Shown: piece by piece, positions 2,452-7,536 of the stretch
How positions within the stretch are numbered: position 1 is the first letter of the stretch
Layout: the number at the start of each line of letters is the position of its first letter
DNA from: Promethearchaeota archaeon
Lineage (GTDB): Archaea; Asgardarchaeota; Lokiarchaeia; Sigynarchaeales; SOKP01
Direction: 5' to 3'
DNA: 7,536 bases
Assembly (NCBI GenBank): GCA_004524515.1
Contig: SDNV01000129.1
Location: forward strand, 1 to 7,536
Notes under the pieces: generated by a model
The model's input: only the letters and a program-made list of their open reading frames with translations
What the model was told of the DNA's origin: nothing
The model's database searches: none
Translations under genes and position numbers: made by a program

Positions 2452-4752
2452 CTAAATTTTTGGTTGGAACACTCCTTTATCAACTAATTTTAAAATCGCG
2501 TCTATTGGTTTTGTATCATTTATATTCTCTGGTATTAAATGTCTTGCATAAAAAAATTTAGAATTACTCTTTTTCGTCATTATTAATGCTCGATTTACAA
2601 GTGCTTTTTCTTCATGAGTAAGTGGAAGATCCTTAGATAAGACTACTTCAAGTGGTAAGATCAATGAAATGTTTAAATGGTTCTTGAGTATATTTGTGAT
2701 ACCCTCAAAATGAGTTCTTTCGCCTTTAAAAGTCTCAAGCGATTTCCCAAATTTTTCTTCAATTTCATAAGATAAGGTTTTGATTGATTCTTTAACAAAA
2801 TCATGCGAGGGTGTTGTACGCATGATTATAATCAATCGAAAATCTTTAAAATCAGACATTATTATTTTAGAATTTTTGTATTCTAATTTGATTGTCTGGG
2901 AAATATCTTCTGCATCGGTAAGTTCGATTCCAAAACCTCTTATGGCTTCTAAAAATCCAGATATTAATGTAGGGTCAATTTTTTTACCAGAGAATATTTT
3001 TTCATATACATTCACTCCTGATTTCTTAGAAATAACTATTAAACTATTGAGATTCAACAAATCTTTATATTGATTAAATTTTTTTTGTTTTAAAGCTTCA
3101 TTTTTTAATTTATATTTCTTTAGGACTTTTAAAGATCCCACACTTAATATAACTAACCCTGTGGATATTGCAAGTACTATATAAATTATAAAGAGATCTA
3201 ATTCAGCGACGTTTATTGGAGTTCTGCTATTATCTTCCCCATTTTCTGCAGTAATAGGAACAGCTGATACTGTAAAAATTATCACATCTACACCCGCAGC
3301 CGTATCATTATACCAAAAAGTAATTGCTTTCCACTCCCCAAGAGGATCATTTACTCTGATTAGATATGAAAAGTTCATTAATTTAGAGGTTACTTTTTCT
3401 GATTTCTTGTAGATTTCCTCGTTATTAGGTCCAATTAGAATAAAAGTTAAATTCCCCTGAATACTTGGTGTTTCTATCGAAACCTCTAAATCTTGGGCTA
3501 AATTAAAATTAAGTGTTGGTAGTTGAATAGTACATATTATTATAGGCGAGAAGGCAGTAATTAACCAATTTGCTTCATTATAAATAGTATTATTTAATAT
3601 GTGAATAAAACTTTCAGTCATGATTACTTCTAAGGTAACATTTATTTCATTTCTATAAACTGTAAGATCATTCCAATCTGAGGGATAATAAACTTTTATT
3701 GAATAATTAAAACCAACTCGATTTATTGTTGGGGTTATATACCAATTATTATGCTCTGAACCTTCCTCAATATTTACATATCCTTCGGAAATTTTCCCTT
3801 TTAGTAATTTAATATGATAAGTTAGATTAAATATTAGGTTTTTCGATTGGTTATGAGAAATGGGTATGGTTAATCTATTTTCAGAAAGTGTATAATTTAG
3901 ATTAGGAATATCTAAATGACCTGTACCTGATTCGGGACCATCTAATATATTATAAGATTGGTTACCGACTTCTACAGTCATATTAATCTCTGATGGAAGA
4001 TACGAGCGATTGACCCAACGTGTATATTTGTGGAGCATAATATACCCTTGAATACTCTGCCATTTCATAGAACCCGAACTATTATAATATCTAGCAGCCC
4101 ACAGATTTGTTAAATGCGACTCATCATTTGCATAAATATAATATATATCATTTCCCGCAATAAGGGACCCATTTATGACTAATGAATAAAATCCAGGATA
4201 TAAGTGTATAGCATTAGGGAAATTACAGTTATACCATTTAAGGGTACTTGACATATTTAATAATACTCTCTCTCCATACCGGGTATTATTAGGGATTGAC
4301 TCCCCAGAATTCCATCCATTTATCTGGACATAAACAGGACTCTCGGTTCCTTCACGTTTTGATCCATAAATTTCTACAGCATAAATCATAGTAACTTCCG
4401 TTATATTGAGCTGTACACTTAGAATATGATTTTTATCGTCCATAATACGTAAAAAATCTGCTATTTCTTCTTCAATAATTACAGTTTCATTTTCTAAGCT
4501 AATGTTATCTAGATTTAATTCAATATCAGAAACGTTCCATTCAGAGGAGGGCATTTCTAAACTAATCTTATTAATATTATTTTTAAATCCCTTGGATTCA
4601 CTAAATTCGATCATATTAAATTCAGAATACCCTGTTAGAGTTTTTTCCTCTCCATTGGCCCTACAATAATTTAAAATTTGAAATAAAAAAATAAAATTAA
4701 TCAGTATTAAAAATCCCAATATAAATATCTGTGAATACCTAGCTTTTATCAT
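2452..4752 (-). CDS. Type I membrane protein: glycosylation-rich ectodomain plus cytoplasmic longin domain
   Basis: The 766-residue product starts with a Sec-type signal (hydrophobic 9-28) and has one further membrane span at about 518-541. Between them lies a beta-rich ectodomain that I do not recognise. It holds 20 N-x-S/T sequons (residues 73 to 482); only two occur in the 225 residues after the span, which supports N-out, C-in topology. A basic helical stretch (542-565) leads to a longin-like domain at about 566-677: two strands (SLIVISKKSG, VNVYEKIF), a helix (DPTLISGFLEAI), three strands (about 618-647) and a second helix ending in FKG. A further conserved module of about 85 residues closes the protein. 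Longin folds bind or regulate small GTPases and SNARE or trapping complexes. The gene follows the GTPase and a small longin on the same strand, so a receptor that passes an outside signal or position to that GTPase is my inference. The ATG at 4752 is the only start that keeps the signal. Confidence 0.85.
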   Translation of the reverse strand: MIKARYSQIFILGFLILINFIFLFQILNYCRANGEEKTLTGYSEFNMIEFSESKGFKNNINKISLEMPSSEWNVSDIELNLDNISLENETVIIEEEIADFLRIMDDKNHILSVQLNITEVTMIYAVEIYGSKREGTESPVYVQINGWNSGESIPNNTRYGERVLLNMSSTLKWYNCNFPNAIHLYPGFYSLVINGSLIAGNDIYYIYANDESHLTNLWAARYYNSSGSMKWQSIQGYIMLHKYTRWVNRSYLPSEINMTVEVGNQSYNILDGPESGTGHLDIPNLNYTLSENRLTIPISHNQSKNLIFNLTYHIKLLKGKISEGYVNIEEGSEHNNWYITPTINRVGFNYSIKVYYPSDWNDLTVYRNEINVTLEVIMTESFIHILNNTIYNEANWLITAFSPIIICTIQLPTLNFNLAQDLEVSIETPSIQGNLTFILIGPNNEEIYKKSEKVTSKLMNFSYLIRVNDPLGEWKAITFWYNDTAAGVDVIIFTVSAVPITAENGEDNSRTPINVAELDLFIIYIVLAISTGLVILSVGSLKVLKKYKLKNEALKQKKFNQYKDLLNLNSLIVISKKSGVNVYEKIFSGKKIDPTLISGFLEAIRGFGIELTDAEDISQTIKLEYKNSKIIMSDFKDFRLIIIMRTTPSHDFVKESIKTLSYEIEEKFGKSLETFKGERTHFEGITNILKNHLNISLILPLEVVLSKDLPLTHEEKALVNRALIMTKKSNSKFFYARHLIPENINDTKPIDAILKLVDKGVFQPKI

Positions 4753-4938
4753 TATCTGCGCTAAAAAATATATTACTGAAGTTCTCTTAACAAATATTCT
4801 TATACAAAGTAGTAACTATATTCTCTTTATTTAAATTTTGATTAAATATTGAATAAGTTAGATTCATTTTCTCATAAGACAATAGGGACATCAATTCGGA
4901 TTATATTGGATTAATGAAGATTAAGCAAAATGAAAGAG

Positions 4939-4969
4939 ACTTAAATTCTGAATACCCTTGTATTTAAGT
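4939..4969 (-). repeat. Inverted repeat just after the second small longin gene
   Basis: Perfect 8-base arms, ACTTAAAT at 4939-4946 and ATTTAAGT at 4962-4969, enclose 15 bases. It begins three bases after the stop codon of the small longin gene at 4972. It could fold in the transcript as a 3' hairpin or terminator, although no long T-run follows and AT-rich arms form weak stems. Confidence 0.35.
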
Positions 4970-4971
4970 TT

Positions 4972-5403
4972 TTATAGAGTTTCAGCAAATTTTTGAATAT
5001 TCGACTTTTGTTTAAGTATTACCTTTACGTCTTCTCTAAACGCATTTAATAGCTCAATTTTATCCTCTATTACTAATTTAAAATGCCCAGTAAACTTTTC
5101 AAGAAATTTTTCTTTGACTTCTTGTAAAATTGGCTTAATCACCAGAGAATCGGCATCTCTATTAGTTTTTAATATGAAGAGATAATTAGACATTTTTTCT
5201 TTGCATAAAAAAAACCGATTATTGCCAATCTCTACACCTCTTATTTCATTCTCTTTAAGAGTTTTAGCTATAGATTGTAGAGCAAAAAGAAAATGGGACA
5301 ATAATGCTAAATTACCATTACCCCCCCCTTGAACGTGATTTTGATAACTGAATATATTCGCACCCGACTGATCAATTATATATATCCAGTTAATCTCGTT
5401 CAT
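4972..5403 (-). CDS. Small soluble longin-like protein, copy A
   Basis: The 143-residue product is a single small domain with no membrane segment. The order of elements is two strands at the very N-terminus (about 5-11 and 14-23), a glycine-rich turn (QGGGNGN, 25-31), a helix (32-49), three strands (about 55-79), and a helix ending in EKFTG (about 86-106), followed by a helical tail. Starting with a strand pair, not a helix, is the longin/SNARE-like order, as opposed to roadblock. It aligns without gaps to the product of 6161-6592, with about 81 of 143 residues identical by hand count. Only 29 bases separate it from the upstream GTPase gene, so the two are probably co-transcribed. Its likely job is to bind that GTPase, perhaps as a dimer with the paralogue; this is inferred from context. 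The ATG at 5403 has only a weak AGTGGG upstream. A run of eight G residues encodes the glycine turn. Confidence 0.85.
   Translation of the reverse strand: MNEINWIYIIDQSGANIFSYQNHVQGGGNGNLALLSHFLFALQSIAKTLKENEIRGVEIGNNRFFLCKEKMSNYLFILKTNRDADSLVIKPILQEVKEKFLEKFTGHFKLVIEDKIELLNAFREDVKVILKQKSNIQKFAETL
5321..5328. repeat. Eight-base C/G homopolymer inside small longin copy A
   Basis: Eight C residues on the plus strand encode the Gly-Gly-Gly turn at residues 26-28. It is the longest G/C run in this AT-rich window. The paralogue encodes the same turn with mixed codons, and the frame here is intact. Confidence 0.8.
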
Positions 5404-5432
5404 ATTTAAAAACCCACTTTCTTAGTTTATTA

Positions 5433-5990
5433 TTATAGATTAATTATTAAAGATTTCTCAAATATTGTATAAATCGTAGTCTTAAAAATTTTACACTTAT
5501 ATCCAGAAGGGATTATTTCTGTTATGTTTTTAATTAATCTCGGAGTAGATACTTTATCTATATCTTTAAATATGTCTTGCTTAGTTAACAAAGGATCATA
5601 TTTATGAAAATATATCGTAATATCCACTTTTACATTATTTTCTCTAAGTAATTTAATGATGTTCTTAAAATATTCTAAGGATAATTCATATCTCTCAATA
5701 TCTTGAATATCAATAACGTAAATAATATTATCCACTTCATCAAAATACCGATCAAAATTATCTAAATATTCCTGACGATATTGTTCTTGTCCCCCAAATT
5801 CCCAGATAATCATATCCGATTGGGGGCCTTTAAAATTGTCAATATTTACTCCTCTTGTAGGTTTCAAGGAGAGATACGATAGTAAATTAGTTCCCTCTCT
5901 TAAACTTAATAAAATAGTAGATTTTCCACTATTATCTAACCCCATAATCATAATTTTTTTATTATCTCGGTCTTGAATAATATTACTCAT
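5433..5990 (-). CDS. Rag/Arf-like small GTPase
   Basis: The 185-residue protein has the full set of GTPase motifs. G1 is GLDNSGKST (17-25), the P-loop that holds the phosphates. The G2 threonine is T45 in KPTRG. G3 is WEFGGQE (63-69), like the WDxGGQ of Arf, Rag and SRbeta proteins but with Glu in place of the Asp. G4 is HKYD (129-132); His in place of Asn is typical of Rag/Gtr GTPases. G5 is probably KTTIY (170-174), resembling the TSIW/Y segment of Rags. It lacks the C-terminal roadblock domain of Rag proteins, stopping about 11 residues after G5, so the last helix is very short. No N-terminal Gly for myristoylation and no lipidation Cys is seen. It presumably switches between GTP and GDP states, with the flanking longin proteins as regulators or partners. 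An ATG at 5990 is well supported by GAGGTAG at 5997-6003. The small longin gene starts 29 bases downstream. Confidence 0.92.
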   Translation of the reverse strand: MSNIIQDRDNKKIMIMGLDNSGKSTILLSLREGTNLLSYLSLKPTRGVNIDNFKGPQSDMIIWEFGGQEQYRQEYLDNFDRYFDEVDNIIYVIDIQDIERYELSLEYFKNIIKLLRENNVKVDITIYFHKYDPLLTKQDIFKDIDKVSTPRLIKNITEIIPSGYKCKIFKTTIYTIFEKSLIINL

Positions 5991-5996
5991 CGTGAA

Positions 5997-6003
5997 CTAC
6001 CTC
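5997..6003 (-). promoter_or_regulatory. Strong ribosome binding site of the GTPase gene
   Basis: GAGGTAG on the minus strand ends six bases before the ATG at 5990. It is the best Shine-Dalgarno match in the window and supports that start. Its strength suggests that the GTPase is translated independently. Confidence 0.6.
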
Positions 6004-6011
6004 GTATCTGT

Positions 6012-6028
6012 AAAAAAACTGAAAAAAA
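6012..6028 (-). terminator. Double T7 run between the first small longin and the GTPase
   Basis: Two runs of seven T (6022-6028 and 6012-6018 read on the minus strand) are separated by CAG. They lie about 130 bases after the stop of the small longin gene at 6161 and just before the GTPase ribosome binding site. They may end the upstream transcript, overlapping the GTPase promoter. If the genes are co-transcribed they would instead be a point of partial termination. Confidence 0.35.
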
Positions 6029-6030
6029 TG

Positions 6031-6038
6031 TTATAATT
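6031..6038 (-). promoter_or_regulatory. Candidate TATA box for the GTPase-longin pair
   Basis: AATTATAA on the minus strand would place the transcript start near 6008, leaving a leader of about 18 bases that just contains the GAGGTAG site. The geometry fits, but the match is in AT-rich DNA and is not unique. Confidence 0.35.
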
Positions 6039-6160
6039 ATTTAATAATAGTCGGATTATTTATCTTTGAGTATTTTGTCAAATTATTATCTTTTAATCTA
6101 ATAAAAAGAGAAAGTTCAATCGTATTTAATTTTAATATTTTGTTAGTTCAATGAACAATT

Positions 6161-6592
6161 CTATATAGTTTCCATGAAATTCTCCATGTTCGATTTATGT
6201 TTAAACATCATTTTTAGATTCTCCTTGAATTCACTTAATATTTCGATTTTTTCATCTATATGTAAGGGAGCATCCCCGGTGAATTTCTCGAGAAAATTAT
6301 CTTTAATTTCTTTGAGCATTGGCTCTATTTTCTGAGAACTGGTTTCCCTATGAGATTTTACGATAAAAAGAAACCTTGTTTTTTTTTCTCGATTTAAAAA
6401 AAATTTATTATTACTGATTTCAACACTCTTAAGCTCATCTTCCTTAAGATCTTTCGCAATGGATTTTAAGGCATAAAGAAAATGAGATAATAGGGCTAAA
6501 CTGGCATTGCTTCCTCCCTGGATATGATTTTCATAACTAAGAATAATTGCTCCCGTAGAATCGATAATATATAACCCAGTAATTTCATTCAT
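6161..6592 (-). CDS. Small soluble longin-like protein, copy B
   Basis: This 143-residue protein has the same length and fold order as the product of 4972-5403. Strands lie at 6-11 and 15-23 (GLYIID, AIILSYENH), then the QGGSNAS turn, a helix (31-49), strands at about 56-79 including RFLFIVKS, a helix at 87-106 ending in EKFTG, and a basic helical tail (about 110-140). Residues shared by both copies cluster in the first strands, helix 1 (LALLSHFL and ALxSIAK) and the EKFTG end, which suggests a common binding surface. The tail and the strand edges differ more. There is no membrane anchor. It lies 170 bases upstream of the GTPase gene, so it may be a separate unit or part of a longer operon. 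The ATG at 6592 is preceded by AAGGAT nine bases upstream. A homodimer, or a heterodimer with the other copy, acting on the GTPase is the likeliest role, by analogy with eukaryotic longin pairs. Confidence 0.85.
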   Translation of the reverse strand: MNEITGLYIIDSTGAIILSYENHIQGGSNASLALLSHFLYALKSIAKDLKEDELKSVEISNNKFFLNREKKTRFLFIVKSHRETSSQKIEPMLKEIKDNFLEKFTGDAPLHIDEKIEILSEFKENLKMMFKHKSNMENFMETI

Positions 6593-6600
6593 TTTCGTAA

Positions 6601-6606
6601 ATCCTT
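6601..6606 (-). promoter_or_regulatory. Ribosome binding site of small longin copy B
   Basis: AAGGAT on the minus strand is followed by eight bases before the ATG at 6592. The surrounding AAAAAGGATTT string also occurs about 20 bases further upstream (near 6619-6629), so the leader holds a short direct repeat of the site. Confidence 0.4.
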
Positions 6607-6692
6607 TTTTCTAAGCTTAAAATCCTTTTTACATGAATAAGAGTAGTTCAGTAAATATAGAACTGCCTATTTTAAAAAATTTATATTTATGA

Positions 6693-6710
6693 ATTATCAA
6701 AATTGATAAT
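6693..6710. repeat. Perfect 18-base dyad upstream of small longin copy B
   Basis: ATTATCAA (6693-6700) and TTGATAAT (6703-6710) are perfect inverted 8-base arms with two bases between them. A two-base loop is too small for an RNA hairpin, so a binding site for a dimeric regulator is more likely. It lies directly upstream of AT-rich TATA-like sequence at about 6651-6690 and downstream of the T-run that follows the membrane longin gene. Confidence 0.45.
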
Positions 6711-6713
6711 ACA

Positions 6714-6736
6714 CATAAAAATAAAAAAAATGAAAA
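6714..6736 (-). terminator. T-rich terminator after the partial membrane longin gene
   Basis: On the minus strand this stretch holds four T, then eight T, A and five T in close succession, 40 to 60 bases after the stop codon at 6776. It is the richest T tract in the window outside genes and fits an archaeal T-run terminator. Confidence 0.5.
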
Positions 6737-6775
6737 GTAAGCTGTTTTTGGACAAAATTTTGAATTATTGGGTGT

Positions 6776-7536
6776 TTACTCAATTGAGGTGGGAACAAAA
6801 ATCTTCTTCTCGATTAAATTGAAGATAGTTCTGGTTTTCTTAGGGTCGTAAGACTGTTCGGGTAATAAGAAGCTTGTAAAGAAGTAATTGAGATTATTTT
6901 GTTTCATAATGGACTTTGCTTTGTTGATCATTGCGAGTTCCTCATCCTTTAATTCCATATTACTCACATCAATTACTTGTAATGGTGCTATAAATGAAGT
7001 ATTGAGATTTTTCTCTACTAATTTACTTATATCTCTAAACTTAGTCGTATCTCCCTTGAAGTTTTGCATTAGAGCTCCAAAATTATCGTCGATATCCTTA
7101 GATAACTGATTTATTGTAGTTAAAAAATCATCTGAGGGATTCTCTGTCATAACAAATATTATTCGAAAATCTTTAAATTCCGTCATGATAATTTTAGAAT
7201 TTTGGTATTCTAGTTTTACCGTCTGCGATTGAGTATAGGTCCCCGTTAGTTCAATTCCAAAATTGCGAATCGCTTCAAAAAATCCAGAAATTAAGCTGGC
7301 GTCTATCATCGTTCCCGCAAAAAATTGTTCATATACATTTAATCCGGTTTTCTTATCAACTACTAAAAGATAATTTAAACTGAGAATATCAATAAACTTG
7401 CTATGTAATCTCTTTAATGCTAAATCACGTTTCTTCTTGATATTTGTAGCGGTTTTGTAGGATATTAAACCCGCAATCGTTCCAATAATTACAATTAGGC
7501 TAATAATAAAAACTAATAACGGATCTAATCCTGTCA
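6776..7536 (-). CDS. Membrane-anchored longin protein, N-terminal part beyond the window
   Basis: The frame is open to the right edge, leaving 252 visible residues of a longer protein. The visible part begins with a membrane span (LLVFIISLIVIIG and on to LISY), then a basic helix, then a longin-like domain (LNYLLVVDKKTG, LNVYEQFF, DASLISGFFEAI, strands around KLEYQNSKIIM and FKDFRIIFVM, helix to NFKG), and a C-terminal module ending in IEKKIFVP. This matches the C-terminal third of the 766-residue protein at 2452-4752: about 55 of the first 90 aligned longin residues are identical. By analogy an extracellular domain should precede the span, but it is not in the window. The first internal ATG (7309) lies inside the longin domain and would cut off its first two strands, so it is not the real start. 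It lies upstream of the longin-GTPase genes on the same strand and is probably a paralogous receptor or anchor for the same GTPase system. Confidence 0.85.
   Translation of the reverse strand, partial: TGLDPLLVFIISLIVIIGTIAGLISYKTATNIKKKRDLALKRLHSKFIDILSLNYLLVVDKKTGLNVYEQFFAGTMIDASLISGFFEAIRNFGIELTGTYTQSQTVKLEYQNSKIIMTEFKDFRIIFVMTENPSDDFLTTINQLSKDIDDNFGALMQNFKGDTTKFRDISKLVEKNLNTSFIAPLQVIDVSNMELKDEELAMINKAKSIMKQNNLNYFFTSFLLPEQSYDPKKTRTIFNLIEKKIFVPTSIE

Follow-up and report, generated by a model that had tools for sequence, protein, structure and literature searches.

A 7,536-nucleotide stretch of contig SDNV01000129.1 (assembly GCA_004524515.1, Promethearchaeota archaeon; the window) carries a locus that probably encodes an Asgard membrane-signalling module, in which longin domains would hold and switch a Rag/Arf-like GTPase at the membrane; we put the probability of this reading at roughly 0.6. 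All eight open reading frames (ORFs) taken as genes in the window lie on the minus strand, and five form the locus of interest: TML1, SOL1, the GTPase, SOL2, and TML2, where TML denotes a transmembrane longin protein and SOL a small soluble longin protein. The original prediction, made from the sequence of the window, had described these five same-strand genes as a GTPase-longin membrane module with one small GTPase, two soluble longin-like proteins, and two transmembrane ones. This gene content was confirmed, and a module recurs in related genomes; the recurring unit, however, consists of one TML, one GTPase, and one SOL. No other locus examined had the full five-gene composition, and the five-gene set was rejected as a conserved entity because the recurring unit has three genes. 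Recurrence of the trio suggests a route by which outside signals could reach the GTPase switch.

Recurrence of the TML-GTPase-SOL unit

Profiles for SOL, TML, and the GTPase were run against 227 genomes of the phylum. Matches were found in at least 31 genomes for SOL (10−10), at least 95 for TML (10−20), and at least 106 for the GTPase (10−30); these tallies are lower bounds, with at most 17 SOL, 4 TML, and 14 GTPase candidates scored per genome. There were 38 SOL matches at E ≤ 10−10, of which the 15 weaker than 10−14, several of them longer multidomain proteins, were excluded, and the neighborhoods of the 23 SOL loci at E ≤ 10−14 were examined. The called SOL ORF is only 91 to 93 amino acids at L089 and L091, where the profile match is longer and the start codons are unsure. 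A separate scan of genome contigs returned two loci.

The order TML>GTPase>SOL was present in 7 of the 23 SOL loci (G107, G108, G109, G112, G113, G124, and G157), with gaps within trios mostly of −8 to 99 bp; the G108 trio spans two contigs whose ends have 149 identical bases in common. Four loci had GTPase>SOL (G082, G085, G110, and G155), G085 (L106) showing the same SOL-GTPase-SOL order as the window, and four had TML>SOL (G001, G002, G103, and G104). Two Ras-type GTPases precede the TML>SOL pair in G103, and one converges on it in G001. Flanking genes mostly differed among the trio loci, apart from a few that close pairs had in common. This GTPase lay directly upstream in 11 of the 23 SOL loci versus approximately 0.05 expected (chance of about 3 × 10−24, assuming 0.002 per locus and ignoring kinship), and 10 of the 12 best GTPase matches in the 227 genomes adjoin SOL. 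Within an independent large protein collection, 10 contig sizes were common to SOL and GTPase matches versus 0.85 expected, and 8 of the 20 best GTPase matches were among the contigs common with SOL. Named relatives of the window proteins were Asgard (Promethearchaeota and similar). That collection gives a contig of precisely 7,536 bases for TML2, so that the window is probably an entire metagenome contig. We found no description of the unit among the titles and abstract openings listed in literature searches, a weak absence, as most subscription papers and the bioRxiv collection lay outside the search.

Folds, topology, and descent of the module proteins

The window GTPase (positions 5433 to 5990; 185 amino acids) was characterized by Pfam, PDB sequence matches, motifs, a transmembrane (TM) scan, and a tree. 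Its motifs are complete (P-loop GLDNSGKS, WEFGGQ, HKYD, and TTIY), and all 28 GTPases inspected retained intact G motifs. The G domain is of the Rag type: Pfam Gtr1_RagA scored above cut-off in 31 of 31 GTPases, and RagC and RagD in the PDB align with the window protein across the whole G domain. The Arf profile matches at 74.8 bits, the alignment being limited to residues 3 to 132. Arf family members have an N-myristoylated Gly2 and an NKxD motif; the window GTPase has Ser at position 2 and HKYD instead. The C-terminal roadblock domain that serves heterodimer formation in Rag/Gtr GTPases is not present, the protein stopping with its G domain without a C-terminal extension. The scan found no TM segment in it, including no N-terminal anchor of the kind carried by the beta subunit of the signal recognition particle (SRP) receptor. 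A single clade (46 rows, support 100/97) contains the GTPases adjoining SOL or TML; two GTPases beside an ArsR regulator only are likewise placed in it, and the trios are spread over separate branches of it.

SOL1 (6161 to 6592) and SOL2 (4972 to 5403, 29 bp downstream of the GTPase gene) are ORFs of 143 amino acids each, with 57% identity. The AlphaFold model of SOL2 (predicted local distance difference test [pLDDT] 81.4) has the order β-β-α-β-β-β-α-α and matches solved longins, SRX chains among them. By predicted fold, SOL is a longin, as had been proposed for the soluble proteins. Pfam longin-clan models scored below cut-off for SOL1 and SOL2; over 45 SOLs, Sybindin matched in 21 and Longin in 7, all weakly (best E of 0.0016 to 0.0017). 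A literature search on PDB entries 8YL2, 8YQG, and 8ZLA found no paper. No TM segment was detected in SOL by the scan. A longin SNARE consists of a longin, then a SNARE coiled coil, and then a C-terminal TM; this layout was absent, the TM of TML preceding its longin and SOL having none. In the SOL tree, SOL1 falls with P0022, P0025, P0035, P0037, and P0042, in a clade separate from that of SOL2. Both clades also co-occur on contigs of 3,074, 33,517, and 1,826,018 bases, indicating that the SOL duplication predates the window organism. No SOL relative was found in viral contigs, and a viral fold search with SOL gave weak synaptobrevin-like matches of giant viruses, which we read as a common longin fold; a viral origin was rejected on these grounds. 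A SOL paralogue without neighboring GTPase or TML occurs in a common neighborhood of G110, G108, and G109 (L098, L101, and L104).

TML1 (6776 to 7534) is visible as a C-terminal part of 252 amino acids, its 5′ end lying outside the window; the ORF matches the TML C-terminal profile at 312 bits and has a TM helix near the start of the visible part and a predicted cytosolic longin domain. TML2 (2452 to 4752) is a type I membrane protein of 766 amino acids (AlphaFold pLDDT 85.1). Its model, a fold search, and a TM scan describe a signal peptide, an ectodomain (residues ∼28 to 512; 3217 to 4671), a TM segment (residues ∼513 to 541; 3130 to 3216), a lysine-rich inner flank, a cytosolic longin-like domain (residues ∼568 to 693; 2674 to 3051), and a C-terminal extension. 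The ectodomain has 20 N-glycosylation sequons, all on the outer side by predicted topology, and is modelled with a lectin-like β-sandwich (∼87 to 249) and a macroglobulin-like domain (∼402 to 502). The model of the cytosolic domain shows the order β-β-α-β-β-β-α-α (pLDDT 63 to 89 over residues 561 to 700), and a profile links this domain to SOL. Matches listed in the whole-protein fold search were occupied by the ectodomain, and whole-length Foldseek of TML2 was not used (no listed match had a TM-score above 0.18).

Module-linked TMLs cluster in the TML tree, TML1 among them, with 1 to 2 label changes over 43 labelled rows. Grouping of TML1 with them was not rejected by the approximately unbiased (AU) test (P = 0.448; a value above 0.05 is no proof of a clade). 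TML2 falls among TMLs of loci without adjoining SOL or this GTPase (the solo lineage), and its grouping with module-linked TMLs was rejected (AU P = 5.6 × 10−5), as was TML2 as a core member. The expected recurrence in Asgard neighborhoods was thus borne out for the GTPase with SOL and TML and not for the TML2 lineage, which otherwise did not stand beside SOL or this GTPase in the regions examined. TML2, whose nearest relatives are P0054 and P0055, may still act with the unit in the window organism. Elsewhere, at L081:2-5887 and L081:8726-14176 and among many other TML-profile matches, there are open frames of approximately 1,100 to 1,960 amino acids whose C-terminal part matches the TM and longin of TML; those in L081 have repetitive ectodomains. 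To judge by sequence, these frames may represent a broader receptor family of large longin proteins. Lokiarchaeia TML genes also stand in tandem (2 to 3 copies) or close by (L069, L070, L071, L072, L067, and L084), near genes for a sulfatase, FMN reductase, U32 peptidase, PCMT, and GH57.

Exchange of the TML ectodomain was also seen. Between G109 and G108, the TM and cytosolic part of TML is 94% identical (synonymous divergence [dS] 0.20), the ectodomain 37% (dS 1.25), and the signal peptide again 80%, with a GTPase dS of 0.18. Such unequal dS within one gene indicates recombination, not selection alone. The TM plus longin of the G107 TML is 87 to 91% identical to those of G108 and G109, whereas BLAST gave no match to either of them for the G107 ectodomain. 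The G107 ORF is truncated by the end of its contig, and a weak alignment links its membrane-proximal part to window TML2. Of five module pairs compared, one showed the break; divergence was even or nearly so in the remaining four. One of three solo TML pairs had the lower dS in the ectodomain (0.035 versus 0.196), again a mosaic.

Longins and GTPases also occur fused. A 313-amino-acid protein of G174 joins a SOL-type longin (A1 E of 4 × 10−14; TML profile 30 bits) to an Arf-type GTPase (Pfam Arf 65.9 bits), and G099 encodes a SOL-type longin fused to a Ras/Roc/Arf-type GTPase (Pfam Longin 25.1 bits, cut-off 26.2; Roc 58.1 bits). According to the available text of the reports, longin-GTPase fusions were already known in Lokiarchaeum (PMC4917890) and longin- or roadblock-GTPase fusions in MK-D1 (PMC10933270). 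At L102:2810-4894, a 694-amino-acid TPR protein, convergent with the G155 GTPase-SOL pair, carries a C-terminal SOL-type longin and begins with a part similar to the response-regulator C-terminal pattern described below.

Close relatives of the GTPase also stand beside two-component genes. Among 16 further regions, each centered on a GTPase match, eight had ArsR>GTPase>histidine kinase>response regulator (L113, L114, L115, L117, L120, L121, L126, and L127), and one, at a contig end, had this order without ArsR. The rest comprised ArsR-GTPase-regulator (one), GTPase-regulator (one), ArsR only (three), regulator-GTPase-SOL (one; G098), and ArsR-GTPase with a converging SOL-like longin (one; G084). 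Kinases were assigned by Pfam MASE3, PAS, and HisKA in L113, L121, and L096 and the remaining ones by BLAST to L113. In G098, G085, and G110 (there divergent and with the kinase), this regulator type also neighbors SOL and GTPase genes. Its C-terminal domain looks longin-like by similar arrangement and by the pattern WDDxxGP, which we take to be longin associated; this likeness is unconfirmed by any search and longin identity is unproven. Aligned by hhalign with SOL and TML longins, the domain gave E values of 0.28 and 0.46, which did not improve on those of controls; a PDB search gave no match up to E of 10, and Pfam detected the receiver alone in 11 of 11 regulators. One strand of L124:2946-7905 (G085) encodes a response regulator, a SOL, and Rag-type (406 amino acids), Arf-type (321), and Rag-type (416) GTPases in that order.

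Proposed mechanism and alternatives

Longin and roadblock domains pair and bind small GTPases, as is established for SRX, TRAPP, Ragulator, and Mon1-Ccz1. Given these pairs, an anchorless GTPase, an anchored TML, and a second longin in SOL, we infer that TML and SOL form a pair holding the GTPase. Longin domains, one in a single-pass TML with a large glycosylatable ectodomain and the other in SOL, would keep the anchorless Rag/Arf-like GTPase at the cell membrane. Paired into a dimeric platform, these longins would bind the GTPase in one nucleotide state and alter its GTP turnover, acting as guanine nucleotide exchange factor, GTPase-activating protein, or effector. A change at the ectodomain (ligand, contact, or surface glycan) might then change the platform and with it the switch. 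Several findings weigh against such a module. By fold or sequence, the TML longin domain is unmatched to solved longins; a PDB sequence search with TML alignment A8 gave five weak non-longin rows (E of 0.22 to 0.42). GTPase-SOL2 is the only tightly spaced pair in the window, the other gaps being 170 to 219 bp. Eight of the 23 SOL loci had neither partner (G101, G102, G108, G109, G110, G154, G156, and G157), which, together with the solo TML lineage, indicates that the partners are not obligatory. GTPase genes of MK-D1 generally do not share operons with genes for longin or roadblock proteins, which makes it difficult to match Asgard GTPases to regulators from genome layout (PMC10933270, available text); TML-GTPase-SOL is therefore one pairing, not a rule.

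The partnerless loci and wide gaps would also fit a loose neighborhood, in which abundant Asgard families are adjacent through co-regulation or shared ancestry and form no physical complex, and there are many such GTPases per Asgard genome (74 in MK-D1, as given in the available text of PMC10933270). We consider this very improbable, however, given the GTPase of one clade upstream of SOL far beyond expectation, the differing flanks of trio loci, and the longin-GTPase fusions. It is also unlikely that the TML longin merely fixes the GTPase to the membrane, like an SRP receptor turned round, with the GTPase recruiting a cytosolic machine (a vesicle, protrusion, or secretion factor) and the ectodomain serving as a surface or adhesion structure without input. 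Such an anchor leaves the separate soluble longin unexplained, and the sensor kinases and response regulators encoded beside relatives of this GTPase point to signal input.

Ectodomain exchange raises an alternative with a signalling role, to which we give only a slightly better, still minor, chance: pressure from phages or neighbors would swap the TML ectodomain by recombination, with the GTPase-longin pair as a constant response module for contact, self/non-self recognition, or infection. The dS contrast between G109 and G108 and the unmatched G107 ectodomain fit this reading; the break, however, appeared in only one module pair of five, and the G107 ORF ends at a contig end. A tentative broader possibility, somewhat more plausible, is an Asgard plug-in receptor system in which a constant longin-GTPase core takes interchangeable sensors, either an exchangeable TML ectodomain or a MASE3 histidine kinase with a receiver-longin regulator. 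If true, surface sensing and two-component signalling would have been tied directly to a Rag/Arf-type switch before eukaryotes.

Relation to known systems and neighboring genes

In its working, the unit may resemble a conservon or an SRP receptor-type pair, but it belongs to neither class. Bacterial MglA acts together with the response regulator RomR. Conservons and MglA-MglB/RomR likewise combine an operon-encoded small GTPase, a partner of the roadblock/longin superfold, and a signalling membrane protein, which in the actinobacterial conservon is the histidine kinase CvnA (PMC4316618, available text). In contrast, the window has a Rag/Arf-like GTPase, a longin partner, an ectodomain-TM-longin protein, and no kinase; an MglA-type GTPase with a roadblock partner was not found in it, the best solved matches of the partner being longins. 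The SRP receptor, whose SRX longin (SR-alpha) and Arf-like SR-beta are similarly a longin and a GTPase at a membrane, carries its TM anchor on the GTPase, whereas the window anchor is on the longin protein, without an SRP-GTPase domain; SRX was among the SOL fold matches. Rag/Gtr GTPases have longin and roadblock partners on a membrane (Ragulator, GATOR1, and FLCN-FNIP) and the same type of G domain, but the window GTPase is single, with no Rag heterodimer. Asgard longin- and roadblock-GTPase fusions (Lokiarchaeum and MK-D1) have the same domain pair; the window-type unit differs in its separate, conserved genes and its transmembrane ectodomain protein. Asgards have dozens of Rag-, Arf-, and Rab-like GTPases, and the unit assigns one specific GTPase its likely partners in several lineages, together with a membrane protein potentially carrying a signal to it. 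It makes testable how switches obtained membrane placement and input before the SRP receptor, Rag-Ragulator, GATOR1, and FLCN existed.

Downstream of the five genes lie a Cys-rich membrane protein (1753 to 2385; 210 amino acids; no Pfam model above cut-off), a coiled-coil protein whose C terminus is a zinc-ribbon-like CxxC segment (981 to 1625), and a DUF362 protein. Relatives of the coiled-coil protein occur near several TML loci (cluster c3, 11 loci), which may reflect coiled-coil similarity only.
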